Under the pieces are notes generated by a model. It was not told where the DNA came from. It did no database searches and was given only the letters and a program-made list of their open reading frames with translations. 64,000 nt of DNA from Absidia repens (taxonomy: Eukaryota > Mucoromycota > Mucoromycetes > Mucorales > Cunninghamellaceae): assembly GCA_002105175.1 (NCBI GenBank), contig MCGE01000007.1, forward strand, positions 1,054,001-1,118,000, given 5' to 3'. This document shows, piece after piece, positions 40,962 to 42,278 of the stretch. The stretch's first letter is position 1. Each line of letters starts with the position of its first letter. Both the position numbers and the translations under genes were made by a program.

Positions 40962-42278
40962 TTACAACACGGTGCAACCACTCTTTGTCTTCTTTTTCTT
41001 GCTCACCATCAAAGCAGCTCTGGTAGCATGTTCAAATACTTCACGGACACCTTCACCAGTCTTCGCGGAACATTCCTGTTTAATAAGAAATTTCCCAGTG
41101 TGAGTCAGTCATAGTTAAACATTGGTGTTCCTTTTTTTTTTTTGTAAGCTAGCTCTTTCTTTTAAAAGGGAGGAGATGAAACTTACCAAATACTTGTAAG
41201 CATTGATACGTTGAGCAACAGAAGAGGCCTATTTGAATTAAATACACAAGAGAATAAAAATGAGGACATTTCTTTTCAAGGAATATTCATGACTTACTTC
41301 TTCCAAAGAGACGGGACGTTGAGAATTTCGTCGAAGTTCTTCAATAGTGGCAGGATCATTTCGTAAATCCTTCTTGCAGCCCACGAGGACAATAGGTAAA
41401 CCTTGACAAAAGTGAAGAACTTCAGAGATCCACTATATATCGGAAAGAGAAGAAAAGAGAGTCATTATACTTATTGTTCTAATTCCTCGTTTTGTGAGTT
41501 TGTATCTCTATTATCTATTTCCTAACTTACCTTTTCTTGAACGTTTTCCAAAGAATCAGGAGAATCCACAGCATAACAGATCAAAATGACATGAGAATCA
41601 GGGTATGATAAAGGTCGGAGTCGATCATAATCTTCTTGACCTATATAAATTAAGATAAGAATTGATGAGTGACGATGATGAAGATGATGATGAATTGGTT
41701 TTTTACTATTCTTTACCAGCTGTATCCCATAATGCCAATTCCACGTGCTTGCCATCGACTTCCACATCAGCCACATAGTTTTCAAAGACAGTAGGGACGT
41801 AGAACTATAGAATAATAATAGTGAGTGAGATAAATAAAGACCCCATTCTTTTTTTGGTCTAAAAAGGAGCACAAGCATATGGTATTGTTTGTTTTAGGGT
41901 AAAAAAATATGTAGATATATAAATATGTATACTTACTTCGGGGAAGGTACCCTTGGAGAAGACAATCAAGAGACAAGTCTACCAGAAATAAATATAGTTA
42001 GTTAGTAATAATAATAGTAATACTAATAAAAGTGTGACCTACCCTATGTGGAGATAAAAAAAAAGGATGAAAAAAAGGGAAAAGAGAATATTGGTTAGTA
42101 GTCGACTTCTCTTTGAGCATAACAGAAGTCACTTACTCTAACAAAATGAAGAAAGAAAGAAAAAGGTGAGTCATATAATTCATCATCATTCAGTCATTCA
42201 TTCTTCATCATCATTAATAAACTTACTTCCACAAGCACCATCACCAACAATAACGAGTTTTCTTCTAATTTCAGCCAT
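40962..42278 (-). CDS. RHO1: Rho1-type small GTPase with two apparent single-nucleotide exons
   Basis: Rho1 controls cell-wall glucan synthesis and actin polarity in fungi. Exons: 42278-42227, 42137 (1 nt), 42043 (1 nt), 41978-41937, 41804-41717, 41640-41531, 41432-41298, 41228-41187, 41075-40962; the sum is 585 nt, giving 194 aa, the standard Rho length. The start [18 protein letters not shown] leads to [20 protein letters not shown] (switch I with Thr), then [35 protein letters not shown] (switch II), the G4-equivalent [18 protein letters not shown] (G5), a polybasic KKKKTK and CTVL, a CAAX box ending in Leu that predicts geranylgeranylation. The P-loop Lys codon is A (exon 1), A (42137), G (42043) and is followed by ACT in exon 4. 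Without both single-base exons the frame fails. Confidence 0.9.

Follow-up and report, generated by a model that had tools for sequence, protein, structure and literature searches.

The P-loop lysine codon of RHO1, a gene on the minus strand (42278-40962) of the 64-kb stretch of DNA from the soil mold Absidia repens that was analyzed (the window), is very probably carried by four exons, two of which consist of a single nucleotide (A at 42137, G at 42043). The bases of this codon would be kept apart by three ordinary U2-type introns, in codon phases 1, 2 and 0, in the layout GGAA / 89-nt intron / A / 93-nt intron / G / 64-nt intron / ACTTGT. The features of the locus, as predicted from the genomic sequence, are given below.

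42227 to 42278, minus strand: exon 1 of RHO1, from the ATG to GGA A, stopping after base 1 of the lysine codon (translation and spliced alignment).
42138 to 42226, minus strand: intron 1, 89 nt, GTAAGT...TTGTTAG, at lysine phase 1 (donor 8.4 bits, acceptor 7.2 bits).
42137, minus strand: predicted single-nucleotide exon A, base 2 of the lysine codon (spliced alignment, site scores and parse enumeration).
42044 to 42136, minus strand: intron 2 (the middle intron), 93 nt, GTAAGT...CACATAG, with a TACTAAC branch-like site.
42107 to 42108, minus strand: rival 2-nt exon AA, CAAAGAG/AA/GTCGAC, with poor sites (parse enumeration and aligner).
42043, minus strand: predicted single-nucleotide exon G, base 3 of the lysine codon (spliced alignment, site scores and parse enumeration).
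41979 to 42042, minus strand: intron 3, 64 nt, GTAGGT...CTGGTAG, with TACTAAC, at phase 0 after the lysine.
41937 to 41978, minus strand: exon 4, ACT TGT CTC ..., opening with the codon after the lysine.
41804 to 41717, 41640 to 41531, 41432 to 41298, 41228 to 41187 and 41075 to 40962, minus strand: the remaining five exons, with the stop codon in the last.

Exon 1 ends with GGT GCT TGT GGA A and is followed by GTAAGT, and the next long coding exon begins with ACT TGT CTC at 41978, which leaves the lysine short of two bases. The missing bases come from TTAG/A/GTAAGT (42137) and ATAG/G/GTAGGT (42043); each is a single base flanked by a canonical AG acceptor and a GT donor, and both are required for the frame and for a conserved motif. 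The sites, coordinates and intron lengths that had been described in an earlier note on this DNA, including TACTAAC in introns 2 and 3, were all located in the sequence. With both one-base exons included, translation of the CDS (585 nt with the stop codon) gave the 194-aa Rho1 expected there, containing GACGKTC. The product is a Rho-type protein of about 194 aa with a GxxxxGK[ST] P-loop, which places it among the Rho1/RhoA small GTPases, and is 96% identical over its full length to rhoA of Halteromyces radiatus.

Related genes were modeled with a protein-to-DNA spliced aligner that used the protein and the splice matrices described below; tiny exons were permitted by this program and not favored. 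Pairs of 1-nt exons were placed in RHO1, L039, L040 and L051, and pairs of 2-nt exons in L048 and L049. The nearest paralogues of RHO1, L039 (contig C32) and L040 (C56), have their one-base exons at the same codon positions as RHO1, with the sites GGAA/GTAAGT ... TAG/A/GTATGT ... AG/G/GTAAGT ... ATAG/AC. A fourth and diverged Rho gene, L051 (C14), is read as GGAA/../A/../A/../ACA and yields AAA, which in comparison with AAG is a silent change inside a one-base exon. The first one-base exon is thus A in all four genes, and the second is G in RHO1, L039 and L040 and A in L051, so that the single-nucleotide exons are conserved among four Rho1-type paralogues of one genome. The two Cdc42-type genes have two consecutive 2-nt exons each, GG/AA/AA/ACC in L048 and GG/AA/AG/ACC in L049:

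L048, 1121 to 1860: Cdc42-type gene in which AA and AA form the third base of a glycine codon and the P-loop lysine codon.
L049, 2160 to 1300, minus strand: Cdc42-type gene in which AA and AG form the third base of a glycine codon and the P-loop lysine codon.

Two deposited A. repens proteins, P0121 (188 aa) and P0217 (197 aa), are identical letter for letter to the 1+1 translations of L051 and L040, respectively, and the deposited gene models of these two loci therefore contain the lysine. The division of the lysine codon AAG over four exons, proposed in the earlier note for RHO1, has counterparts in three more Rho1-type genes, and it was also the sole strong canonical parse of RHO1 itself (see below). 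In a search for orthologues that covered viral contigs (12 pattern matches) and genome contigs (59 pattern matches), no other fungal genome being among them, none of the matches was confirmed.

Donor and acceptor matrices were trained on 250 ordinary introns (median length 83 nt) of small GTPase genes of A. repens, with omission of introns beside exons shorter than 12 nt, of introns longer than 300 nt and of models scoring below 150. For the enumeration and the shuffle tests the outer donor and acceptor were held fixed, and the GT/GC-AG parses that restore the lysine were collected. Two such canonical parses were obtained in RHO1, the A and G pair with 40.3 bits and the 2-nt exon AA (42108-42107) with 5.9 bits, and this result did not change when the minimum intron was set to 20, 30 or 40 nt. 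The statement of the earlier note that only two sites fit therefore holds for strong sites, A 42137 and G 42043 forming the sole strong parse, but not for canonical parses in general. The six RHO1 sites concerned lie between the 14th and the 53rd percentile of the 250 ordinary introns. Elsewhere the number of lysine-restoring canonical parses was one in L039, L051 and L048, two in L049 and three in L040; in L040 a near rival for the second one-base exon is another G with a GC donor (41.8 vs 48.3 bits), which leaves the codon unchanged. Weak sites (3.4 bits, 2nd percentile of the 250 introns) occurred as well, namely donor 2 in both L039 and L040 and donor 3 in L051. A longer exon bridging the RHO1 gap was also considered and discarded: an in-frame TAG precedes ACT, and reading on from exon 1 leads to an early stop. 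Skipping of A, of G or of both, or retention of intron 1, 2 or 3, was computed to bring in a stop no later than codon 39.

Any lysine-restoring parse was present in 161 of 2,000 dinucleotide shuffles of RHO1 (292 for L039, 300 for L040, 173 for L051, 230 for L048 and 276 for L049). The observed mean site score was equalled or exceeded in 1 of 2,000 shuffles of RHO1, a value that is not a clean probability because RHO1 had been singled out from the 64 kb beforehand. The five other genes were found through protein similarity and not through the tiny-exon pattern, and the corresponding counts per 2,000 were 0 for L039, 2 for L040, 2 for L051, 0 for L048 and 1 for L049. With the weakest site as the measure, which is harsher for genes with one weak donor, the observed value was matched in 1 (RHO1), 11 (L039), 17 (L040), 8 (L051), 1 (L048) and 0 (L049) of 2,000 shuffles.

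The codon could in principle be supplied by the single 2-nt exon AA, the one-base sites then being due to chance. This exon is a canonical AG/AA/GT parse that yields lysine (AAA), and when the micro-exon donors were masked the aligner reverted to a 2-nt exon in RHO1 and in L040, the score falling by 13.5 and 11.4 units, respectively. Its sites are poor, however (acceptor -3.7 bits, donor -5.0 bits), and neither L039 nor L051 has a 2-nt parse, yet both share the strong 1+1 layout with RHO1; the AA exon is for these reasons extremely unlikely to be the one used. Even less credence can be given to an assembly or sequencing error or a pseudogene, in favor of which nothing was found beyond the oddity of the layout. 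The identical layout is present at four loci on four contigs (C67, C32, C56 and C14), the RHO1 frame is unbroken over 194 codons, and the dN of RHO1 was 0.05 to L039 and 0.18 to L040, against a dS of 0.81 and 1.34. The division of the codon over four exons with two single-nucleotide exons was therefore retained as the reading of RHO1.

The introns of Rho1-type pairs were aligned and compared with shuffles; z values ranged from -1.5 to 3.2 and were below 2 in most of the 18 comparisons, and dS was 0.81 to 2.26 in five of the six pairs, the sixth being not computable. For L048 and L049 the introns aligned at z 2.0 to 4.1, with a dS of 0.88. Judged by these values, the layout common to the Rho1-type paralogues is not due to recent copying. 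In a tree of 40 proteins RHO1 was grouped with Halteromyces (99/81), apart from L039, and L040 and L051 stood on long branches with unsure placement. Since RHO1 falls with Halteromyces and apart from L039, the tree suggests that the split between RHO1 and L039, and the layout with it, is older than the divergence of Absidia and Halteromyces.

The distribution of introns was determined in 62 aligned small GTPase loci, chosen from 145 exon-level Ras-family matches and including the genes of the window. The P-loop was present in 60 of the 62 models (it is absent from those of L081 and L096), and in 43 of these 60 an intron lies between 15 nt before and 9 nt after the first base of the lysine codon, with ten positions represented in all. 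The P-loop codons of these small GTPase genes are an intron hotspot. The four Rho1-type genes have introns at positions 1, 2 and 3 of the lysine codon, and both Cdc42-type genes at positions -1, 1 and 3 relative to this codon; position 3 alone is occupied in four Ras-type genes (L056, L057, L077 and L078) and position 2 alone in L080.

Internal exons were counted in the same models, with omission of those scoring below 150. Among 236 internal exons, 14 were of 1-2 nt, none was of 3-10 nt, and the next size was 11 nt. The 14 exons are spread over eight genes, namely RHO1, L039, L040, L051, L048, L049, L056 and L057. The last two, of Ras/Rsr1 type, have one 2-nt exon AG each, which completes a Glu codon (G/AG) of the FVETYDP motif; in L077 and L078 this codon contains no intron. 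TACTAAC is also found in the intron that precedes the 2-nt exon of L057. One further entry among the 236, a zero-length exon placed by the aligner in L094, is doubtful and was set aside, because in the model of the similar locus L095 these flanking exons are separated by a single intron. No internal exon of 1 or 2 nt was found in G-alpha/Arf genes, for which four loci (L099-L102) were usable; the L102 alignment opens with a piece of 4 nt. In the window itself, a Rab-type gene (14913-15923, plus strand) has an 11-nt exon (15149-15159) that encodes the last residues of the P-loop (GVGK) and lies between introns of 99 and 85 nt.

The gap at 3-10 nt suggests, for one gene superfamily, that the exons of 1-2 nt form a separate class and not the tail of the small exons, and that they were created where introns inserted into the exonic bases of splice sites already present. 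The layout of RHO1 may be old, and its introns may have been gained one by one within the exonic portion of a splice site, in a region of small GTPase genes where introns are plentiful.

In filamentous ascomycetes the donor and acceptor of an intron are paired with each other (intron definition; PMC5639578), and for the Arabidopsis APC11 gene the authors favor intron definition with two introns removed successively (PMC4674806). The likeliest mechanism for RHO1 is intron-defined splicing with the introns leaving one after another, each short intron being recognized, as we would expect, when its donor pairs with its acceptor. In RHO1 a single base separates the acceptor of an intron from the donor of the following intron, and neighboring introns would be removed one after another because the shared splice-site bases could hardly be bound simultaneously. 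Each removal would leave a complete donor at the junction, GGAAA/GTAAGT and then GAAAG/GTAGGT. In the computed scores, removal of intron 1 raises donor 2 from 6.9 to 9.0 bits, and removal of intron 2 raises donor 3 from 6.1 to 8.3 bits; the gain after removal of the upstream intron is about 2.1 bits in Rho1-type genes and 0 to 0.7 bits in Cdc42-type genes. These rising scores favor a 5' to 3' order, although the gain is no sign of adaptation, since it follows from the one-base exon itself. A 5' to 3' order of removal in RHO1 is given roughly even chances.

A different order, in which the middle intron with its TACTAAC leaves first, so that AG becomes a 2-nt exon flanked by introns 1 and 3 until these too are removed, is considered possible but distinctly less probable. 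TACTAAC was present in four of the six middle introns (RHO1, L039, L048 and L049), compared with 7 of the 250 ordinary introns (Fisher p = 2.7e-5), but the motif had already caught attention before the test was run, the four cases belong to two gene families and are not independent events, and the middle introns of L040 and L051 are without the motif. Intron 2 is the best aligned of the three in RHO1/L039 (z 3.2) and in L048/L049 (z 4.1), and in a potato invertase gene the second intron around a 9-nt exon was removed first, as cited in PMC4674806; against this, L039 and L040 have a weak donor at the middle intron. The three introns might also be taken as a stwintron, in which an internal intron interrupts a splice element of an external one and no genuine exon lies between the two. 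Structures of this kind are known in fungi and require consecutive splicing (PMC5639578), but all three RHO1 introns have a complete donor and acceptor of their own, none appears to have its donor, branch or acceptor interrupted by an internal intron, and excision of all 248 nt would yield GGA AAC, with a change of frame followed by a stop, so that this structure is very unlikely here. It also appears doubtful that the P-loop lysine of the Rho1 and Cdc42 genes in this mold lineage is assembled by an obligate chain of three splices with a specialized TACTAAC middle intron, kept by selection as an old gate. Intron-defined removal of three complete introns, one after another, is retained as the likeliest mechanism.

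If the message is as proposed, RHO1 imposes a tighter constraint than an isolated exon of one base would. Its middle intron has a one-nucleotide exon on each side, so that spliceosome assembly could not lean on exon sequence there, and the gene would be an extreme natural test of the minimal exon size that the splicing machinery can manage. The four paralogues with different introns, together with the Cdc42-type genes with their 2+2-nt exons, provide a comparative set for the order of removal, intron definition and the accumulation of introns at one codon. Were the obligate chain true, any slip would lead to an early stop, and splicing accuracy could set the output of polarity switches.

Gene models of these GTPases may fail at the catalytic lysine. 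GxxxxGK[ST] is missing in two of the 249 proteins among the matches listed, P0122 and the fish sequence P0227. P0122, from Absidia cylindrospora and a relative of L051, has been modeled from MTSLVASF, that is, from the threonine right after the third intron, and the P-loop is missing; this truncated start is probably an annotation failure at the tiny exons. P0228 (rhoA of Lichtheimia ramosa, 235 aa) has an extra stretch after WDTA (EQVHPFNRF...PPIT), away from the P-loop, which looks like an intron retained in the model.

The earlier note had cited single-nucleotide exons as described in a plant gene, which is correct, though the occurrence is wider and extends to plant APC11 and VPS55, Fusarium CYP621A and mitochondrial genes. 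APC11 and VPS55 have a conserved single-nucleotide exon (PMC4674806, PMC8831610), that of APC11 having been tested by mutation (PMC4674806), and two conserved clusters of 1-nt exons are reported, in different plant genes (PMC8831610). They resemble RHO1 in the conservation of a 1-nt exon and differ in having one per gene, in plants. The single-nucleotide exon of Fusarium CYP621A, described in February 2026 as the first in a fungal gene, was observed in 20 orthologues and is backed by RNA reads (PMC12940212). It resembles RHO1 in being in a fungal nuclear gene, canonical (AG/N/GT) and required for the frame within a conserved motif. CYP621A has one 1-nt exon and two introns, however, whereas RHO1 has two such exons in series and three introns in one codon; and the RHO1 layout, present in four paralogues, is known from genomic sequence, in contrast to CYP621A with its RNA reads.

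In placozoan mitochondrial cox1 (PMC5436844) and fungal mitochondrial rnl (PMC12308204) a single base lies between self-splicing introns; the cox1 base completes a conserved codon, and its authors invoke intron gain that severed an exon base (PMC5436844). One base isolated between two introns is common to these genes and RHO1, but the mitochondrial introns are of group I or group II and enclose a single base, and those of RHO1 would be removed by the spliceosome and enclose two in series. Two one-base exons in series within one codon were not found in the literature searched, mostly without subscription papers, and are absent from the available parts of PMC12940212, PMC4674806, PMC5639578, PMC8831610, PMC12409088, PMC12308204 and PMC5436844. 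A single one-nucleotide exon is thus already known, and two in series within one codon appear to be new.

Stwintrons are like RHO1 in being packed fungal introns that need consecutive splicing, and they arise by intron gain inside a splice element of an existing intron (PMC5639578). The internal intron of a stwintron splits a splice element; RHO1 keeps two exonic bases, and each of its introns is complete. A further likeness is to recursive splicing, in that each excision in RHO1 leaves a donor at the new junction (AAA/GTAAGT, 9.0 bits, and AAG/GTAGGT, 8.3 bits, as computed). Classical ratchet points of recursive splicing contribute no base to the message. RHO1 differs from them in that its junctions are not of zero nucleotides: two exonic bases must be retained, and each step adds one base to the lysine codon.
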